IMG/VR virus record: IMGVR_UViG_3300044701_003269
Coordinates: 62,001-126,000 of that record
DNA length: 64,000 nucleotides
Reading direction: 5' to 3' (one strand)
Source: a virus
The notes beneath the pieces were generated by a model. The model ran no database searches and had not been told where the DNA came from. It worked only from the letters and a program-made list of their open reading frames with translations. The position numbers and the translations under genes were made by a program. Positions 2,117 through 50,390 of this stretch are shown piece after piece; position 1 is the first letter of the stretch; each line of letters starts with the position of its first letter.

Positions 2117-2398
2117 GCGAGTATGGTGGAATCGGTAGACACACCAGACTTATGAAAATTGAGCCTCATTTGAGAAATCTTATGAGTGTAATTCCTCAAA
2201 TTCGGTGAAACCTGTAAAATGGCAATACCGAGCCAAGCATCGTAAGATGAAGGTGTAGAGACTAGACGGGGAACACCTAAACCGAAAGGTATGGTGAAGG
2301 TATAGTCCAGACCACAAACCGAAAGGGTAGTGAAAACTATAGTGGTACGAAAATCTGTTGGGCGTATGCCCGTGGGAGTTCAAGTCTCCCTACTCGCA
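2117..2398 (+). tRNA. trnL-UAA: tRNA-Leu(UAA), split by a group I intron
   Basis: Exon 1 is 2117-2151 and exon 2 is 2350-2398. The 7-bp acceptor stem is perfect (GCGAGTA 2117-2123 with TACTCGC 2391-2397), with discriminator A at 2398 and no encoded CCA. The D-stem is GTG/CAC, the variable arm is long (GGGCGTATGCCC), as in class II tRNAs, and the T-arm carries TTCAAGT. Joining the exons gives the anticodon loop CTTAAAA with anticodon TAA (Leu). The anticodon stem has one C-U mismatch at pair 27-43. The interruption lies between U34 and A35, the same site as the intron of cyanobacterial and plastid tRNA-Leu(UAA). Confidence 0.93.
2152..2349 (+). other. Group I (IC3-like) self-splicing intron in tRNA-Leu anticodon
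   Basis: The 198-nt insert begins after U34 and ends in G2349, as group I introns do. Exon CUU can pair with GAG at 2161-2163, giving the U.G wobble at the 5' splice site. P2: CTCAT 2165-2169 with ATGAG 2182-2186. P4: TTCGGT 2201-2206 with ACCGAG 2227-2232. Q-like element: GGCAATACCGAGCCAAGC at 2221-2238. R-like core: AGAGACTAGACGGGG from 2257. P7: GACTA 2260-2264 with TAGTC 2303-2307. GNRA-capped hairpins occur at 2281-2290 and 2328-2339. The Q, R and S elements closely resemble the Anabaena tRNA-Leu intron as I remember it, but this copy is shorter. It has no internal ORF. Confidence 0.92.
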
Positions 2399-3140: not shown

Positions 3141-3761
3141 ATGAAATCAGATTTTTATATAGATAGGGTAGGTAAAGAAGAAATAAAAGAACTTCTTTAT
3201 ACCTATCATTATCTTAAAGACGAATCTAAAGATTTCAAATCGCATTTCAACTATGGGCTTTTCAGATCCTCAGTTTCTGATATTCTTAGGGTTGGTGGGT
3301 GCTTGGGCACTTGTATCTTTACTGGGTTACCAGTCCCCGAAATAGCAGTAGGTGCGTTTGGTTTAGAAAGAAACCAACAAGAAGGTATATACGAACTCTC
3401 AAGACTTTGTATACATCCCCTTATTCAAAAAGAAGAATATAACATCACATCTTGGTTCGTTAGTCGTTGCATAAGGAGATTTAAAAAAGATGCCCGCGTT
3501 CGTGCTATTCTTAGTTACGCTGACAATAATCAGCACTCTGGAATTATATACAGAGCTTGTAATTTTCAATACTATGGTTTGACTGATAAGAAATCGGACT
3601 TCTGGATAAAGCAATCTGATGGTTCCTTCATAAAACATTCAAGAGGTCCAATTAAAGGATTAGAAGGTGAATGGAGAGATCGTAGTCGTAAACATAGATA
3701 CCTGATGATATTTGATAAGGAACTGAAGAAAAGGTTGACGTGGGAAGAGAAATCGTGGTAA
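3141..3761 (+). CDS. Mom-like DNA modification acyltransferase (GNAT fold)
   Basis: This 206-aa protein resembles Mu Mom and related phage proteins, GNAT-like enzymes needed for N6-carbamoylmethyl-adenine modification of DNA, which protects against restriction. Visible hallmarks are ELSRLC at 85-90, the SWFVSRCIR helix at 104-112, SYAD at 125-128, HSG at 132-134 and YRACNF at 137-142, all in the expected order for the family. The C-terminus is basic (KHRYLMIFDKELKKR), consistent with nucleic-acid contact. The gene lies 10 bp after a small coupled gene and is closed by a strong terminator. The family call is by motif memory; the chemical modification made here is not shown. Confidence 0.75.
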   Translation: MKSDFYIDRVGKEEIKELLYTYHYLKDESKDFKSHFNYGLFRSSVSDILRVGGCLGTCIFTGLPVPEIAVGAFGLERNQQEGIYELSRLCIHPLIQKEEYNITSWFVSRCIRRFKKDARVRAILSYADNNQHSGIIYRACNFQYYGLTDKKSDFWIKQSDGSFIKHSRGPIKGLEGEWRDRSRKHRYLMIFDKELKKRLTWEEKSW

Positions 3762-27708: not shown

Positions 27709-28538
27709 TGTCAATACTACAAAACTTTTTTGCAAGTGCTGCAGCTGCATCTCCAGTTTCTATTGAAGTTCTTATGATGGCTGGCGGTGGTGCAGCAAAC
27801 AATACAAGTACAAGTATGGGTGATGACGGATTCCCATGGGGCGTTGGTGGCGGCGGTGGCGGGGGGGGTTTATATATCTATTCCACTACTTTAGCTCCTG
27901 GGACAAGTAGAACTGTTACTGTTGGTGGTGGTGGTGCCGTTCCAAGTCCAGCTGGATCTAACACCTCATTTACTGGTGCTTCAGATGCTATTGGTGGAGG
28001 TCGCGGTGCGGGTTCCGTCGGCACCGTCTCAACAGTAGGTTTTCCTGGTGGTTCTGGTGGCGGTAGTATAAATTCACCAGCTGGTGGAGCAGGAACTGCT
28101 GGACAAGGAAATTCTGGAGGTTCCGGAACTAGAGGACCTGCGTCTGGCACTGGCGGCGGCGGCGGCGGAAAGGGGGGAGCAGGATCCGCCGGCACCCCAA
28201 CCGTTGGCGGCACTGGTGGAGCTGGATATAATCTATCTACTTTTAGGGGAGGTAGTTCTCTAACGGTTGCTTTTGGTGGTGGCGGTTCTGCTGGGAATTA
28301 TTACGGATTGAATAGTTTTGGAATTAATGGCGATGGCACAACAAATATCAGCCAGGCAGCAAATACTGGTGGCGGTGGTCGTGGAACTGGTGCACCTGGA
28401 GCATCCGGAAGAGTTATTGTGAGATATGCCGGAACAGTTGCAAAGGCAACTGGTGGAACCATTACTACAGCAAATGTCTCTGGAACTGATTATGTAATTC
28501 ACGATTTCACTGCAACTGGAACTTTTACCGTAACTTAA
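27708..28538 (+). CDS. Glycine-rich adhesin, 276 aa
   Basis: The ATG at 27708 is chosen because it overlaps the collagen-like gene stop (TGATG) and has GGAGGAGG upstream. The N-terminus (SILQNFFASAAAASPVSIEVLMMAGGG) leads into a glycine-rich domain with several runs of five or more glycines. It ends in a second small unit (VAKATGGTITTANVSGTDYVI ... FTATGTFTVT), a truncated copy of the ATGG...HTFTSSGTF repeat seen in the 613-aa protein at 32936. It lacks the usual SGIVVIRYP end but has the related GRVIVRYAG. Probable receptor-binding tip. Confidence 0.83.
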   Translation: MSILQNFFASAAAASPVSIEVLMMAGGGAANNTSTSMGDDGFPWGVGGGGGGGGLYIYSTTLAPGTSRTVTVGGGGAVPSPAGSNTSFTGASDAIGGGRGAGSVGTVSTVGFPGGSGGGSINSPAGGAGTAGQGNSGGSGTRGPASGTGGGGGGKGGAGSAGTPTVGGTGGAGYNLSTFRGGSSLTVAFGGGGSAGNYYGLNSFGINGDGTTNISQAANTGGGGRGTGAPGASGRVIVRYAGTVAKATGGTITTANVSGTDYVIHDFTATGTFTVT

Positions 28539-28546
28539 TTAAACTT

Positions 28547-29026
28547 ATGGCACACTTCGCAGAATTAGATCCTGATAATGTAGTCACGAGAGTAATCGTT
28601 GTTTCGAATGATGACATTCTAGATGAAAATGGTAATGAGTCTGAACAAAAAGGAATTGAATTTCTGCACAATTTATTCGGACAAGATACTAAATGGATTC
28701 AAACTTCATTTAATGGAAATTTTAGATATAATTTTGCTGGAATAGGAGACACTTATGATCCAGAAAGTGATGTTTTTATTCCTGAAGGATATTCTTATAA
28801 TGAACAATATCAAAGATATTTGCCTCCTATTCCAGAACAACCACATCCTCTTTGGTGGTATGACCCAGATAGATTAAAGTGGAGGCCACCATTTCCAAAA
28901 CCATATGATACATATCAATATGAATGGGATGAATCTATTTCAAATTGGAGGCAAGTTGAAGGGTCCGAAGGTGAAAGAGCGTGGACTCTTGATATGGAGC
29001 AACCAGTATTCGAAAGAAAATATTAG
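28547..29026 (+). CDS. MAHFAEL-family fibre-associated protein, 159 aa
   Basis: A paralogue of the proteins at 26014 and 34811: MAHFAELDPDNVVTRVIVVSNDD, DENGNESEQKGIEFLHNLFG, KWIQTSFNGNFRYNFAGIGD, then a longer Pro/Trp-rich C-terminal half (HPLWWYDPDRLKWRPPFPKP, YEWDESISNWRQVE). It starts 8 bp after the glycine-rich adhesin, keeping the same gene order as in the other cassettes. The extra 20 residues lie in the C-terminal WxxW region, where specificity differences would be expected if it interacts with its own adhesin. Confidence 0.83.
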   Translation: MAHFAELDPDNVVTRVIVVSNDDILDENGNESEQKGIEFLHNLFGQDTKWIQTSFNGNFRYNFAGIGDTYDPESDVFIPEGYSYNEQYQRYLPPIPEQPHPLWWYDPDRLKWRPPFPKPYDTYQYEWDESISNWRQVEGSEGERAWTLDMEQPVFERKY

Positions 29027-29042
29027 AAAAATAATATAAAAG

Positions 29043-29071
29043 TTGACGTATTATGCTATGATAAGTTAAAT
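29043..29071 (+). promoter_or_regulatory. Possible sigma70-type promoter
   Basis: TTGACG (29043-29048), a 17-bp spacer and TTAAAT (29066-29071, 4 of 6 matches). It lies 13 bp before the oxygenase gene at 29084. GTTAAATATAC here could also be read as a poor late box. Confidence 0.4.
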
Positions 29072-29083
29072 ATACAATATATT

Positions 29084-29728
29084 ATGGAAAGAAAAATTAA
29101 TATTTTAAAAGATCCATTTCCACATTTGATTATAGAAAATTTCTATGATCAAGGGGAATTGGATCTTATTTGGGAAGAATTAAATTTTTTAAATAAACCG
29201 GGAAAACTTTATGATCCTGGCCATGATCATGGTGCGCAAAATCCAGAAACCAAAGAATTTTATACAAAATCAAAAGCAATTGAATTAGAGACCGCTTATA
29301 ACAATATTAATCTCTCAAATATTATTTCAGTTTCTCAGAAACTTTTTAATCATGGATTTTTAAATATTTTTTACGATAAATTTCCACAATATAAAAAAAT
29401 ATTATATCCAAATTATTGCAAAACTAAAGTTAGATATTATAAAAACAAAGATTATTATGCACCACATATTGACATTAGACACGATTTTTTAGCTTTTAGT
29501 TACTTTTATAAAGAACCTAAAAAGTTTTCTGGTGGGGAATTATTTTTCCCAGAATACGATGATTATGAAGTTGAATGCTCTAATAATAGTTTAATATTAC
29601 TTCCTTCATATCCAATTCATGGAGTTAAATTAGTTACTATAGATGATAATGATTATTCCTCTGGATATAGTCGATATTGTATCTCTCACTTTTTTGGCAT
29701 AGACCATAATACTTTTATTTTAAATTAA
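29084..29728 (+). CDS. 2OG-Fe(II) oxygenase, 214 aa
   Basis: A prolyl-hydroxylase-like double-stranded beta-helix enzyme. The metal triad is visible as H128-x-D130 (APHIDIRHD) and H179 (PIHGVKLV), with R197 in GYSRY placed to bind 2-oxoglutarate. The segment KKFSGGELFFPEY between them is typical of the family. The N-terminus (INILKDPFPHLIIENFYD) is the common entry strand of such phage and bacterial hydroxylases. The gene is much more AT-rich than the adhesin genes around it. It lies between two adhesin cassettes, followed by a sulfotransferase-like gene. The substrate is unknown; fibre or other proteins are candidates only. Confidence 0.85.
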   Translation: MERKINILKDPFPHLIIENFYDQGELDLIWEELNFLNKPGKLYDPGHDHGAQNPETKEFYTKSKAIELETAYNNINLSNIISVSQKLFNHGFLNIFYDKFPQYKKILYPNYCKTKVRYYKNKDYYAPHIDIRHDFLAFSYFYKEPKKFSGGELFFPEYDDYEVECSNNSLILLPSYPIHGVKLVTIDDNDYSSGYSRYCISHFFGIDHNTFILN

Positions 29729-29740
29729 TACATTTAAATC

Positions 29741-30508
29741 ATGCAAACAGCGTTAAATGCTGGTCAAATATATCATACAGCATACTGTGGTTCTACTTTA
29801 ATGGCATCATTATTGGCAGGATCTTCGACAGTTTATTGTGAACCTCCATGGACCAAGTTATTATTGCAAGACAATCAAGAAGAAATTTTGAATATTTTAG
29901 AAGAACAATTTAAAAAATATGAAGGAAAAATTGTTGTAAAATTTCAAAGTATTCTTTGCTTTGCGTCTAAAAATTTTACTGATAAAAAAATATTTTTACA
30001 TAGAAAGTTGATTCATCATCTATTTAAATATAAATCTTCATCACCCTTAAGGTACGATGATATTTTAATTTATAAGTATCAAATTCATAAAGATCATTGC
30101 CATCCAGCATTAAAACATCTTCACTTTGAAAGTGATTTAGAAAAGATACTGTTTATTTGGGCAAATAATGTTCATTGGATGTTGGAATCTAATAATGTTT
30201 TATGGATTGAATCAAATAATTTTTTTAGAAATAAACAAAAAGTTATGAGTGATGTTTGTAATCATTTAGAATTAGATATGGTTACCAACTTTGAATTATC
30301 TAACTTTTATGTGAAAAGTTTTAATCTAAATGGAAATGAACATAAAATTAACAATTTGGAAATTCCTAATTTAGGAACCTCCAAAACTTTATATCCCTCA
30401 TATGGAATCATTGAAGATGACATGTGTAAGCAATATGATGATATTAATGAATTAATAGAATGGTCACATAAAAATATGCCAACTATATCTAAAGAACTTT
30501 TACAATAA
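29741..30508 (+). CDS. Sulfotransferase-like P-loop protein, 255 aa
   Basis: Residues 10-37 (IYHTAYCGSTLMASLLAG, then CEPPW) resemble the PAPS-binding 5'-phosphosulphate loop of sulfotransferases, where a CGST-LL pattern is followed by a conserved EP. A second feature is KIVVKFQSI near residue 67. The C-terminal half is helical (KVMSDVCNHLELDM is the late helix seen before the 3'-phosphate region in such enzymes). It is very AT-rich and follows the 2OG oxygenase by 12 bp, so the two are probably co-transcribed. Alternative: another P-loop kinase-like fold. Catalysis and substrate are not shown. Confidence 0.6.
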   Translation: MQTALNAGQIYHTAYCGSTLMASLLAGSSTVYCEPPWTKLLLQDNQEEILNILEEQFKKYEGKIVVKFQSILCFASKNFTDKKIFLHRKLIHHLFKYKSSSPLRYDDILIYKYQIHKDHCHPALKHLHFESDLEKILFIWANNVHWMLESNNVLWIESNNFFRNKQKVMSDVCNHLELDMVTNFELSNFYVKSFNLNGNEHKINNLEIPNLGTSKTLYPSYGIIEDDMCKQYDDINELIEWSHKNMPTISKELLQ

Positions 30509-39765: not shown

Positions 39766-40623
39766 ATGGCAACTCTAAAAAGCTTAACAGTTAATGATAC
39801 TGGTTTCATAAAATTACCTTCAGGAACCATTGCACAAAGACCTTCATCACCATCTAATAATATGATGAGGTTTAATACTGATTTGGGTTGTAATGAAATG
39901 TACTCTAATGGAAATTGGATGGACCAATTAACAGGAGGCCCTGCAGTTATTAAGAATGGTTTAGTTCTTCATTTAGATGCAGGTGCTCCTAGGTCTTATC
40001 CAGGTTCAGGAACCTTATGGAGAGATTTAAGTGGTAGTGGACTAAATGCATCTGGAACTGCAGCAAACATCACTTCTTCTGGTGCTATTTCTGGAGCATC
40101 TTGGACAACTTCTTCAACCAGTATATTGAATACGGATACTCATTCAATATTTTTTATGTTAAAACTGAATTCTTCTGGAACTTATCCAGAAGGATATACT
40201 GGAAGTTGGGAAAAAATATTTACTTATGCTCCTGCCGGAACTGATAGAAGTCCGGGTGTTTGGAGATATCCAAGTGAAAGAAAAATACATTGGAGATATG
40301 ATCCGGGGAACAGTGATATTGATTTTTCATCAACGGCGAGAGGACTTTATCCTGCTCCGGGAACACCATTTGCATTAAATACTTGGTATTATATAGGAGT
40401 AACTAAAAATGGAGCAACTGCAACAGCATATGTAAATGGTCAAAGTCTTGGTTCTAGTACAGTATCAAACCCAAAAACATCTGGAAATGCAACAGTAATT
40501 ATAAATGAATCTTATACTAGTCAACTTAATAATATAAATTCTGTAGTTGTATATAACAGAGTACTCACAGCAACGGAAGTTTTACACAACTTTAATTCTA
40601 TAAAATCAAGATTTGGTTTATAA
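39766..40623 (+). CDS. LamG-like lectin protein, 285 aa
   Basis: The third paralogue: leader ATLKSLTVNDTGFIKLPSGT, IAQRPSSPSNNMMRFNTD; lectin part LVLHLDAGAPRSYPGSGTLW, DLSGSGLNASGTAANI, HSIFFMLKLNSSGTYPEG, NTWYYIGVTKNGATATAYVN, INSVVVYNRVLTATEVLHNF. The NGATATAYVNGQ strand matches the canonical lectin VYxDG position. It starts 3 bp after the 85-aa gene. The three lectin paralogues share leaders but diverge in the loops, as expected for diversified specificity. Confidence 0.9.
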   Translation: MATLKSLTVNDTGFIKLPSGTIAQRPSSPSNNMMRFNTDLGCNEMYSNGNWMDQLTGGPAVIKNGLVLHLDAGAPRSYPGSGTLWRDLSGSGLNASGTAANITSSGAISGASWTTSSTSILNTDTHSIFFMLKLNSSGTYPEGYTGSWEKIFTYAPAGTDRSPGVWRYPSERKIHWRYDPGNSDIDFSSTARGLYPAPGTPFALNTWYYIGVTKNGATATAYVNGQSLGSSTVSNPKTSGNATVIINESYTSQLNNINSVVVYNRVLTATEVLHNFNSIKSRFGL

Positions 40624-40673
40624 AATAGCCACTCAGATTAAGATATTATAAATCTATTACATCAAACGCAGAT

Positions 40674-47255: not shown

Positions 47256-47847
47256 AATCTCCAACTCCAAATTCTCCTACAGGGAATAAGTTAAAAGCAA
47301 TAGATATTCTTTCTGGATCTTTATAGTTAGTGCATATTCTATGTTGCAGATAACTTGGAAAAATTATCAGATGATTTTTTCTTGGATAAATTGGCCATAT
47401 TCTAGAATTATGAATATTCCATTCAACTGGATCTTCCAACATAAATCTTTGAGCATTTGGTCCATAACCAAATTGTAGAGGGGTATTCATATTGTCAAAG
47501 TAAAAAACCCCACTATACATTGAATTGCAGTGATTATGATATTGTCCAAAAGATCCTCTTAATGATTTCGTAGCCCATGAGGTTGTAATTTCAAAAGTAG
47601 AGTGATATTGTTTTAGAATGTTGTCTTTGTAATGGGTATTGAAATAATCTAGAAATATTTTTTTCTCTTTGGTAAATTTTTTAAAAATATATCTATTTAA
47701 TGAAATTTGTTGATTATATGCTAACTCAGAGGTTATTGGCTTGAACTCTAGATTTTTAACTTGTTCTTTAAACTCTGTAAAATCTTCTTCTACTTCTATA
47801 TCGAGAACTGTTGATGGGAAAAGAGGATAAATTTCATGAGATGTCAT
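47227..47847 (-). CDS. 2OG-Fe(II) oxygenase, PF13759-like, minus strand
   Basis: The only supported minus-strand gene in the window. The 206-aa product follows the PF13759-type layout: N-terminal IYPLFPSTVLDIEVEED, then H104/H106 in GQYHNHCNSMYSGVFYFDN (metal and shape residues), IIFPSYLQHRICTN with H169, and ERISIAFNLFPV with R180 as the 2-oxoglutarate residue. The usual H-x-D is replaced by H-N-H in this family. It has its own promoter (47870-47899, minus strand) that interleaves with the divergent promoter of 47936. Substrate unknown. Confidence 0.85.
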   Translation of the reverse strand: MTSHEIYPLFPSTVLDIEVEEDFTEFKEQVKNLEFKPITSELAYNQQISLNRYIFKKFTKEKKIFLDYFNTHYKDNILKQYHSTFEITTSWATKSLRGSFGQYHNHCNSMYSGVFYFDNMNTPLQFGYGPNAQRFMLEDPVEWNIHNSRIWPIYPRKNHLIIFPSYLQHRICTNYKDPERISIAFNLFPVGEFGVGDSMLKVQIQN

Positions 47848-47869
47848 ATTATTAGATCAATTTAATCCA

Positions 47870-47899
47870 ATTATAACATAAATTGACATTACTTATCAA
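47870..47899 (-). promoter_or_regulatory. Sigma70-type promoter for the minus-strand oxygenase
   Basis: On the minus strand: TTGATA (47894-47899), an 18-bp spacer and TATAAT (47870-47875). It lies 22 bp before the minus-strand ATG. Its -35 box lies inside the spacer of the opposing promoter. Confidence 0.65.
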
Positions 47900-47912
47900 C
47901 ATCATATATAAT
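47883..47912 (+). promoter_or_regulatory. Sigma70-type promoter, divergent
   Basis: TTGACA (47883-47888), an 18-bp spacer and TATAAT (47907-47912), both exact consensus. The ATG of the next oxygenase is at 47936. Confidence 0.75.
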
Positions 47913-47935
47913 AACACTGAATACATTATTCAAAT

Positions 47936-48571
47936 ATGGCATTTCAATCAATTTGGTACTTTACAAACCTACCAGACAAGATCGTAGATATTATTGAAGA
48001 AGATCTTGCAGAAAACTTTGACCCACAACTCCAAGATTCCAGAGTTGGTGCTGGTGATTATGGAACTGTAGATAAAGATAAAAGAAACGCAAAAAACGCC
48101 TGGGTTCCCACAAATCACTGGGTTGCAGGCTTTGTGTGGCATTATGTTCAACGAGCAAACCGTGAGAACTTTTTATATGACCTGACAAATATTGATGGTG
48201 AATCACTTCAATATACTGTGTATGGGGAAGGTGAGTATTATGGTTGGCATAATGATGCTGGACTTGCTTCTCACTACAAACCAGTTTCTGCAGGTAATCG
48301 TGGAACTGGTGAAGAAATTGCTTCAGATTTCATTAATGAAAACTGTGAGAAAGTAAGAAAGTTGTCTTTCAGTTTGCTTCTTTCTGACCCAGAAACTTAT
48401 GAAGGTGGAAACTTACAACTTCTTTCGGAGAATGGGAAATCTTATATTGCCCCAAGGCAAAGAGGAACGATTATTCTCTTTGATTCTCGTACACAACACC
48501 GAGTTCAGAAAGTAACTAAAGGTGTTCGTAAGAGTTTGGTTGGTTGGACTGTTGGACCTCGTTGGAAGTGA
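47936..48571 (+). CDS. 2OG-Fe(II) oxygenase, PKHD-type, 211 aa
   Basis: Close in layout to bacterial PKHD-type hydroxylases (PiuC-like). Metal triad: H105-x-D107 (YYGWHNDAG) and H188 (SRTQHRV); the 2-oxoglutarate Arg is R198 (KGVRKSLVGW). The segment LSFSLLLSDPETYEGGNLQL lies between them, with a characteristic GGxL, and the end VGWTVGPRW is typical. A near-consensus promoter lies 24 bp upstream, so this gene can be expressed early. It ends 3 bp before the next oxygenase gene. Substrate unknown. Confidence 0.88.
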   Translation: MAFQSIWYFTNLPDKIVDIIEEDLAENFDPQLQDSRVGAGDYGTVDKDKRNAKNAWVPTNHWVAGFVWHYVQRANRENFLYDLTNIDGESLQYTVYGEGEYYGWHNDAGLASHYKPVSAGNRGTGEEIASDFINENCEKVRKLSFSLLLSDPETYEGGNLQLLSENGKSYIAPRQRGTIILFDSRTQHRVQKVTKGVRKSLVGWTVGPRWK

Positions 48572-48574
48572 GTT

Positions 48575-49294
48575 ATGGCAGAAGAAATGACACAAGAACA
48601 GATTGACTGGCAAGAAAAAGTCAATTCTGGTACATCACCAACAAATAACGAAGAGTTTGATAAGAACGGATATCTGGTTCTAAGAAATCTTTGGGATCCG
48701 AAAGATCTTTATTCAGACCCACCAGTAATCAAAGGACAATACAATTACTTTGGAAAGGTTGATAAGTTCAATCACATCCCAGTAGAAAATCAAGTAGAAG
48801 GTTCAACTTCAAGGTATTATTGGCCTCCTTATAAGTTTGCTCATTCTCAAATTCGTCTCAAACTTGAGGAAGCAATTGGTAAGAAACTTTATAATACTTA
48901 CTATTACGATAGGTTTTATAATCCAGGACAAGCACTGACAAATCACGCAGACAGACCAGCTTGTGAGATTTCAGTAACAGTTCATATTGGTTCTAATATC
49001 AGTACTCCTTGGCCTATTTGGATTAAGACACCAGATACTTATGATGATGCCAAAAAGAGAACTTTGGTTATAAAAAAAGGTGAAAATCGTTCAGTGATCT
49101 TAAATCCTGGTGATGGTATGATTTACAAAGGGTGTGAGAGACCACACTGGAGAGATCCAATGCCAACTGAGTATCGTAGAACTTGGTATGGTAAGAAGGT
49201 GGAAAAAGAAGGTTTATATTATCATCAAGTCTTTTTCCATTATGTTCTTGCTGATGGTACAAGAGCCCATTGTGCTAATGATATGGCATCATAA
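48575..49294 (+). CDS. 2OG-Fe(II) oxygenase-like protein, 239 aa
   Basis: It lies 3 bp after the previous oxygenase. The N-terminus is helical and charged (EEMTQEQIDWQEKVNSG); NGYLVLRNLWDP is an entry strand common in phytanoyl-type oxygenases. Metal ligands appear as H124-x-D126 (TNHADRPACEISVTVHIG) and H191 (ERPHWRDP) with R193. NPGDGMIYKGCERPHWR is a recognisable signature of a cyanophage oxygenase family. The C-terminus FFHYVLADGTRAHCAND closes the beta-helix. Substrate unknown. Confidence 0.85.
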   Translation: MAEEMTQEQIDWQEKVNSGTSPTNNEEFDKNGYLVLRNLWDPKDLYSDPPVIKGQYNYFGKVDKFNHIPVENQVEGSTSRYYWPPYKFAHSQIRLKLEEAIGKKLYNTYYYDRFYNPGQALTNHADRPACEISVTVHIGSNISTPWPIWIKTPDTYDDAKKRTLVIKKGENRSVILNPGDGMIYKGCERPHWRDPMPTEYRRTWYGKKVEKEGLYYHQVFFHYVLADGTRAHCANDMAS

Positions 49295-49309
49295 AGTGAC
49301 TAAAGTTTT

Positions 49310-49447
49310 GTGAATGAAAACATTACTGATATTTTGATTGAAGCAATTGAGGATCAGCAAGAGCAAATAAATAGTCTCAAGGAAGAAAATCAATCTTTAA
49401 AAAATAAACTTTATTATGAATTTTGTAAAACTTGCATTGGAAAGTAA
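49310..49447 (+). CDS. Possible 45-aa coiled-coil peptide (S74 tail remnant)
   Basis: A GTG-started 45-codon frame (NENITDILIEAIEDQQEQIN, then SLKEENQSLKNKL) resembles the terminal coiled coil of S74 chaperones (LLIEAVKDQQKQIDELK at the end of 23484). It overlaps the next gene by 32 bp. It is either a detached chaperone tail left by recombination or an untranslated remnant. Confidence 0.35.
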   Translation: MNENITDILIEAIEDQQEQINSLKEENQSLKNKLYYEFCKTCIGK

Positions 49448-50390
49448 AGGCAGCATAAAGCCTTTACTTATTAACCCAGAAGATCTTACAGGACCATCAA
49501 TTACAAATCCTTCTGTCTTTGTTTATCAAAATAAGATATTAGTCAATCTTCGCAATGTAAATTACACTTTATATCACTCAGAACTCAATAGATTTGAGCA
49601 TATGTGGGGTCCGTTGTCCTACATTCACCCTGAGAATGATATGCACCTGCGAACGACTAACTACATCGCAGAACTTGATGACAACTTGGATATAGTTCAT
49701 TATTCAAAGATAGATACATCTAAGTTTGATACTTACAAACCACAATGGGACTTTGTGGGACTGGAAGATGTTCGTTTAGTAGAATGGAACGATAAGTTAT
49801 ATGGTATTGGTGTTCGCAGAGATTTAGACACCAAAGGAACTGGAAGAATGGAAATCAGTGAACTTGAGATTTCTGGTTCTGAAGTTAAGGAAGTGTTCCG
49901 ATATAGAATTCCAGGACCACCACCTGATAACGAGTACTGTATGAAGAACTGTACTCCAATCTTAGATAAACCATTTCATCTTTTAAAGTGGACCAATCCA
50001 ACTTGTTTGATGAAGTTTGATATTACTGGAAAAGAAACAGGGGTATTTGAAACAAATTCATATGCACCTACAAATAATGATTTGAGAGGTGGTTCTCAGG
50101 TCATTCCTTATAAAGGTGGTTACTTGTCAATTTTACACGAAACAGACCTTTATAAGAGTGAACAAGGAAGAAAAAACGCAACTTATAGACACCGTTTTGT
50201 GATTTGGAATAAAGATTTTCAAATTATTAAAGTATCCAAACTCTTCTCATTTATGAATATGAAGATTGAGTTTTGTTGTGGTATGGCAGAGTATAAGAAT
50301 GATTATCTCATTACCTTTGGAGCTCAAGATAATGCTGGGTATATTCTAAAAGTTTCTAAGAGTGTAGTGGAGGACTTTATCAATGAGTGA
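49416..50390 (+). CDS. GH130-like beta-propeller protein, 324 aa
   Basis: A predicted five-bladed propeller resembling glycoside phosphorylase/hydrolase (GH130-like) proteins. Hallmarks are GLEDVRLVEWNDKLYGIGVR at 115-134 (the GxEDxR motif), NPTCLMKFDITGKETG, RGGSQVIPYKGGYLSILHET (split by one blade), and YRHRFVIWNKDFQIIKVSK. The catalytic residues of true enzymes are not certain here, so it could be a glycan-binding or phosphorylase-like protein. It overlaps the following TPR-methyltransferase gene by 8 bp, so the two are coupled. The annotation is moderate in confidence. Confidence 0.6.
   Translation: MNFVKLALESKGSIKPLLINPEDLTGPSITNPSVFVYQNKILVNLRNVNYTLYHSELNRFEHMWGPLSYIHPENDMHLRTTNYIAELDDNLDIVHYSKIDTSKFDTYKPQWDFVGLEDVRLVEWNDKLYGIGVRRDLDTKGTGRMEISELEISGSEVKEVFRYRIPGPPPDNEYCMKNCTPILDKPFHLLKWTNPTCLMKFDITGKETGVFETNSYAPTNNDLRGGSQVIPYKGGYLSILHETDLYKSEQGRKNATYRHRFVIWNKDFQIIKVSKLFSFMNMKIEFCCGMAEYKNDYLITFGAQDNAGYILKVSKSVVEDFINE

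Follow-up and report, generated by a model that had tools for sequence, protein, structure and literature searches.

A group I intron in a phage tRNA-Leu(UAA) gene, drawn from a large phage population of a well-known intron

With high confidence, a compact group I intron, inferred to be self-splicing, splits the tRNA-Leu(UAA) gene of a probable cyanophage between U34 and A35; it belongs to the bacterial tRNA-Leu family and spreads from phage to phage. The group I intron in this phage tRNA gene is real, and it is one of a large and seemingly undescribed population that a well-known intron has in phages. The kind of intron is already known, and it is its place and its scale that are new. The gene lies in a stretch of 64,000 nucleotides (the window), which corresponds to bases 62001-126000 of a virus record of 174,186 bases (IMG/VR record IMGVR_UViG_3300044701_003269). 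The locus is organized as follows:

1224-1406, + strand: DUF7294 protein, 60 aa (PF23966, 3.7e-21), a recurrent upstream neighbour by synteny
1498-1926, + strand: LAGLIDADG-like ORF, 142 aa, single-motif and free-standing (PF00961, E 4.7e-4, below the cut-off)
1929-2108, + strand: phrog_1308 protein, 59 aa (1.5e-30), a recurrent upstream neighbour by synteny
2117-2398, + strand: split tRNA-Leu(UAA) gene
2117-2151, + strand: 5' exon of the tRNA-Leu(UAA), G1 to U34 (acceptor stem; ARAGORN on the joined exons)
2152-2349, + strand: group I intron, 198 nt (RF00028 match; uninterrupted alleles in other phages)
2350-2398, + strand: 3' exon of the tRNA-Leu(UAA), A35 to the discriminator A, with the CCA not encoded
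2444-2713, + strand: phrog_4134 protein, 89 aa (5.4e-32), a recurrent downstream neighbour by synteny
2716-2787, + strand: tRNA-Thr(UGU), uninterrupted

When 2152-2349 is taken out, ARAGORN accepts the joined exons as tRNA-Leu(taa) with the anticodon loop CTTAAAA. This agrees with a preliminary description of this DNA, which had placed the gene at 2117-2398 and the insert at 2152-2349, exact to the base, and had read the acceptor stem as perfect. This stem, GCGAGTA/TACTCGC, is paired at 7/7 positions, and the T-stem at 5/5. Four pairs form in the anticodon stem, whose far end (27-43) is a C.U mismatch; the letters there are identical to those of the uninterrupted tRNA-Leu of Synechococcus phage S-SCSM1. 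The split gene is not detected by ARAGORN under default settings, and the intron option of this program misnames it as tRNA-Tyr(ata), which may be the reason why such genes stay unannotated. The tRNA arms are also kept in related genes: the acceptor stem is paired at 7/7 positions in 55 of the 56 genes with introns of 197-201 nt, in 11 versions, all 56 having passed ARAGORN before this count.

The insert had been proposed to be a group I intron, and its core is indeed scored by the Rfam covariance model: cmscan reports RF00028 at 2142-2331 with 62.4 bits (gathering score 50) and an E-value of 2e-13. Its helices are listed below under the usual group I helix names; mismatch counts refer to 38 phage introns picked at less than 93% mutual identity.

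2149-2163, + strand: P1, with C2149-G2163, U2150-A2162, U2151.G2161 and A2152-U2160
2167-2173/2178-2184, + strand: P2, compensatory types at all seven pairs
2192-2197/2268-2273, + strand: P3, 0/38 mismatched at all six pairs, several pair types
2201-2207/2226-2232, + strand: P4-P5, enclosed by P3
2238-2241/2246-2249, + strand: P6, enclosed by P3
2260-2264/2303-2307, + strand: P7, GACUA/UAGUC, pseudoknotted with P3
2274-2277/2293-2296, + strand: P8, 0/38 mismatched, compensatory types
2311-2315/2342-2346 and 2327-2331/2336-2340, + strand: P9 region, 0 to 2 of 38 mismatched per pair

The tests by which relatives were admitted required the tRNA exon letters, the terminal G and at least 4/5 anticodon-stem pairs, which are therefore not independent counts. 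In P1, the C-G, U-A and U.G pairs are kept in 38/38 introns, with the exon letters CTT fixed by the search pattern and the intron letters GAG free; that is, the U of the U.G pair and the terminal G were required by the search, while the pairing G was free and is kept in 38/38. P7 is paired in 38/38 at all five pairs, with a change from A-U to U-A at one pair in 2/38. P2 shows from 0 to 12 mismatches of 38 per pair, the worst being located mid-helix, and compensatory changes are found in the P9 region. The anticodon stem covaries too, but the filter required at least 4/5 pairs there. Two helices of a nested prediction (2253-2254/2266-2267 and 2256-2258/2262-2264) were set aside because they clash with P7. 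The intron holds no homing-endonuclease ORF, and the reverse-strand ORFs inside it were read as chance open frames.

The U.G pair at the 5' splice site (U2151.G2161), the P7 segments GACTA/TAGTC and the final G (G2349) had all been noticed in the preliminary description. These features stand, and they are accompanied by the covariance-model match and by a covarying P3-P7 pseudoknot, as found in group I introns. Conserved and covarying intron helices are the signature of a maintained ribozyme, and this intron appears to be under such maintenance.

The site between U34 and A35 and the homology to bacterial introns at this same site place the intron in the bacterial tRNA-Leu(UAA) family. With its bacterial relatives, it shares the U.G pair of P1 and the core segment GAGCCAAG, which was part of both the phage and the bacterial search patterns, whereas the kind found in the window differs in that it resides in phage genomes, is shorter, and is patchy at one locus. 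The subgroup, as in the bacterial relatives, is presumably IC3. The Azoarcus pre-tRNA-Ile intron, of about 205 nt, is similar in being a very compact anticodon-loop intron, although it is bacterial and interrupts another tRNA.

From the behavior of this family, we infer that intron 2152-2349 is self-splicing. An exogenous guanosine would attack 3' of U34 at the U.G pair of P1, and the freed U34 would then attack after the terminal G, joining the exons. The spliced tRNA would become active and read the UUA codons of this AT-rich phage. As had been anticipated, splicing should be a prerequisite for an active tRNA, because the group I intron interrupts the U34/A35 site of the tRNA-Leu(UAA).

No tRNA-Leu(UAA) other than the split gene was found in the record, in which the codon that it would read, UUA, is the commonest one for leucine. 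In a similarity search, the split gene matches only once in the record. ARAGORN reports ten tRNAs outside the window, none of them Leu(UAA), and the tRNA-Thr inside it. When the 83 ORFs of at least 200 aa are taken together, 30.6% of their 2,620 leucine codons are TTA, and the overall GC content is 36.9%. The record is taken to be a cyanophage due to the presence of two genes of the PF00124 (psbA/psbD) family. It also contains a PhotoRC-II RNA motif (78 bits; L464 13331-13425) and a wcaG RNA motif (106.1 bits; L463 16135-16232), and no further group I intron reaches the Rfam gathering score in it. A glutamine riboswitch aptamer (RF01739) was observed in the cyanophage record as well (L465 769-867, G000 about 40569-40667), with 37.2 bits against a gathering score of 35. 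On the 3' side of the split tRNA, at 3141-3761 on the + strand, there is a gene for a Mom-like DNA modification protein (PF25680, 2.8e-21; phrog_1384), which is retained in several related phages.

Introns of this kind are common in phages. At least 120 IMG/VR contigs match a pattern made of the 5' exon and GAGCCAAG at 60-90 nt, and in 112 of the 120 matches listed, excision of the insert leaves a full tRNA-Leu(taa); these inserts come in 83 distinct versions, and 30 of the 112 are exactly 198 nt long. The other eight contigs were not confirmed, and at least two of them (L143 and L176) are located where the examined stretch ends. A control pattern with the gap set to 120-150, where about 80 would have been right, gave 92 contigs, of which only 5 pass the tRNA test. 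Three of these five (L032, L038 and L075) have Rfam support; the remaining two (L013 and L049), with neither an Rfam group I match nor an insert ORF longer than 55 aa, were not relied on. L032, L038 and L075 represent a second kind of viral tRNA-Leu intron, of 256 nt and 80.8 bits to RF00028; in a first tree, a branch of 2.16 places L032 at a great distance from the intron of the window. At least four of the 112 (L130, L131, L160 and L218) group with introns of Achromobacter, and these may be tRNA genes of the host located at the ends of proviruses.

The same test applied to bacteria is passed by 110 of 118 stretches among the matches listed, and bacterial introns at this site occur in alpha-, beta- and gammaproteobacteria, Bacteroidota and cyanobacteria. 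One proteobacterial contig (L227, JAFEFH010000001.1) presents two matches to the tRNA-Leu-intron pattern in opposite orientation, about 0.5 kb apart. The claim that 198 nt is unusually small holds with respect to the bacterial introns (median 226; 3 of 110 at most 204 nt) but not within the phages (median 198; 88 of 112 at most 204 nt), in both cases among the matches listed and with slightly different gap limits in the two scans, which may bias this comparison slightly.

Same-site introns are also found in the Agrobacterium phage Atu_ph07 (278 nt), the single cultured phage identified with such an intron, whose laboratory host is strain C58, and in the huge-phage records LR756501 (205 nt, with the same match in LR756503) and LR756511 (700 nt, with an HNH gene inside, 4.7e-6). 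Two further introns encode a nuclease, LAGLIDADG_2 in L170 (E 2.5e-26) and, weakly, HNH in L181 (0.0036). The introns of Atu_ph07, LR756501, LR756511, L170 and L181 fall below the Rfam gathering score, so their assignment rests on similarity, site and tRNA structure. Of the 117 IMG/VR records with introns, 50 were searched for PF00124, which was found in 10, all of them with introns of 198-201 nt. In the records of L166 (G023, 47278-49930) and L195 (G033, 28000-30006), the PF00124 matches come in pieces over 2-2.7 kb, as if the gene were interrupted by introns.

According to the portions of Hausner 2014 at hand (PMC3984707), phage introns known to that date all resided in protein-coding genes, despite the many phage tRNA genes. 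A tRNA review of the same year, in the sections available (PMC4033280), lists group I tRNA introns in cyanobacteria, alpha- and betaproteobacteria and plastids, without mention of phages. A count of the word 'intron' in the main text of the huge-phage paper (PMC7162821) gives 0, and the accessible parts of PMC7824862, PMC11878797, PMC3037559 and PMC13096335 do not mention a phage tRNA intron. The preliminary description knew of no described phage copy, which is in line with the open-access literature, as far as its texts were available and with subscription papers mostly outside it, in which no description of group I introns in phage tRNA genes was found. A partial likeness exists in the capsid region of the Pelagibacter phage HTVC120P, with 74.7% identity over 49% of a 321-base query; this match sits between two ORFs annotated as capsid protein, whereas the intron of the window is in a tRNA gene. 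In L006 and L008, capsid-gene regions (near locus position 1500) show 74.7% and 90.5% identity to part of the intron core, stretches that may reflect the movement of introns between tRNA and protein genes.

Uninterrupted alleles of the gene exist in other phages. By similarity, one was found in S-SCSM1, whose tRNA-Leu(taa) has the junction letters of the window; by a joined-exon pattern, others were found in L432, L402, L425 and L405. At least 120 IMG/VR contigs match joined exons of the window type in the pattern scan, which demanded the junction letters and not the neighbour genes, and among the matches listed 90 of 120 carry at least one neighbour gene of the window within 3 kb. L432 shows the gene order of the window (60aa, 59aa, tRNA-Leu, 89aa, 59b, Mom) without the intron. 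Over 300 nt around the site, the window minus its intron is 83.6% identical to L432, 70.7% to L402, 68.1% to L425 and 57.3% to L405. Among phage records, a set that may omit some very near to this genome, 261 match the window gene, 234 of them cyanophages by name (Synechococcus 198, Cyanophage 32, Prochlorococcus 4). None of those matching records spans 80% of the query at a single place, and in the best 60 of the 261 the cyanophage rows cover 21-28% of it, that is, the exons only, so no named cyanophage in that collection shows the intron at that sensitivity.

Where the intron came from can be judged from its relatives. Over aligned columns, with gaps not counted, it is up to 100% identical to introns of other phages and 81.2% to that of Atu_ph07; among the matches listed, the best and median values are 80.6 and 73.7 for alphaproteobacteria (n=48), 80.6 and 75.0 for Saprospiria (n=4), and 75.0 and 70.6 for Cyanophyceae (n=18). 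The best bacterial matches in blastn are introns of Rhizobium (82% over 157 nt, E 1e-38) and Rhodobacterales. In the phylum of a Planktothrix genome, 39 of 386 genomes match, with a best score of 106 bits, and in the class of a Rhodobacterales genome 37 of 385 do, with 146 bits, although such genome counts are not intron counts, as Richelia (L274), with a confirmed tRNA-Leu intron, gave no match. A tree was built with 186 introns and 205 columns, after removal of L032, L146, L165, L190, L227 and L230 (from 192 rows) and with introns longer than 320 nt left out; the first tree, with all rows, had been dominated by long branches. In this tree, which is unrooted and whose bootstrap had not settled, the intron of the window groups among window-like viral introns, and many of the viral introns are placed away from those of bacteria.

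The preliminary description suggested a movement from host to phage, which in its recent form would mean that the phage captured the tRNA-Leu gene of a cyanobacterial host together with its intron. The shared site is consistent with this idea, as is a 99/99 branch that separates the window-like viral introns, together with the cyanobacterial ones, from the rest. However, the cyanobacterial introns form, with one Tatlockia MAG, a 100/100 clade of their own on a branch of 1.36 changes per site, and the closest relatives of the intron are not in cyanobacteria, as both the identities and the bit scores given above indicate. Besides, the exons of the window tRNA match the uninterrupted tRNA-Leu of other cyanophages, which makes it more likely that the intron was inserted into a gene already present in the phages. 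A recent cyanobacterial origin does not fit these comparisons, and we regard such a capture as very improbable; an ancient connection to the intron of cyanobacteria is possible, because the tree is unrooted. A different account, vertical descent from a phage ancestor that already had the intron, with clean loss on repeated occasions and mobility now gone, is conceivable though unlikely. Neighbour genes are common to many intron-bearing loci, and the identity of the introns correlates with that of their flanks (Spearman 0.34, from 528 non-independent pairs). Nevertheless, in 34 of the 528 intron-plus pairs, introns at least 97% identical sit between flanking proteins at most 60% identical (in L199/L179, 98.0% and 41%, respectively), and repeated exact loss out of a tRNA gene would need its own mechanism. 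When a tree is built from two proteins that flank the site in 33 intron-plus and 29 intron-minus loci (149 columns, bootstrap unsettled), the intron state requires at least 10 gains or losses, 6 of them forced by well-supported branches (9-11 across the bootstrap). Shuffled states need a mean of 20, so that the intron state is also clearly clustered. We read this pattern as repeated gain and loss together with horizontal spread, probably through homing or recombination at the tRNA locus.

How an intron without an endonuclease would move between phages may involve a nuclease acting in trans, recombination at the locus, or reverse splicing. A candidate for the first route is the LAGLIDADG-like ORF, located 228 bp upstream of the intron on the same strand, which resembles I-AniI (E 8.5e-4) and phrog_5046, annotated as an HNH endonuclease (E 2.9e-23). 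In collaborative homing, its product would cut uninterrupted tRNA-Leu genes and thereby carry the intron. Cyanophages offer a precedent in F-CphI, a free-standing nuclease gene close to the psbA intron of S-PM2, reported in the parts available of PMC6083498 to cut the intron-less psbA allele; there the host gene is protein-coding, whereas here it is a tRNA gene, and the intron is not consistently accompanied by the nuclease gene. Among the 118 intron-bearing loci, the ORF appears in the window and in L152 only, and the intron and neighbours of L152 are identical to those of the window. It was not found elsewhere in the 339 sequences compared, nor in any of the 120 empty-site contigs among the matches listed, and its rarity speaks against it as a conserved partner of the intron. 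One more relative of the ORF (L462, 73% identical) occurs without a tRNA-Leu in the stretch examined. Some of these absences carry little weight, because 37 of the 118 loci have less than 1.5 kb of upstream DNA, where the ORF could escape notice. A nuclease gene kept with the intron across phages was not found, and we consider homing by this ORF rather improbable. That the insert is degenerate and has killed the tRNA gene is the least credible proposal, being extremely unlikely: the intron core and the tRNA arms are conserved and covarying, and a dead gene would leave the phage without any tRNA-Leu(UAA) found for its commonest leucine codon. With comparable doubt to that expressed for homing, it can be speculated that the intron is kept since it breaks an anticodon-loop nuclease target and delays the only UUA tRNA, making the phage tRNA-Leu a battleground of introns. 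The nucleases in question would be carried by competing phages or would cut the uninterrupted tRNA-Leu gene of the host, and the maturation of the tRNA would be held until cell conditions allow it.

A compact group I intron of the bacterial tRNA-Leu family, spread among phages, has several implications. It constitutes, in about a hundred viral contigs, a counter-example to the notion of phage introns in protein genes only, as worded in the available part of Hausner 2014 (PMC3984707), and it suggests that an old bacterial intron has a large reservoir in phages. Genes of this type, which are easily missed by ARAGORN, may be lacking from published tallies of the tRNAs that phages encode. Many natural pairs of intron-plus and intron-minus loci are available for mobility tests. 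Finally, if splicing were regulated, a ribozyme would gate a phage tRNA.
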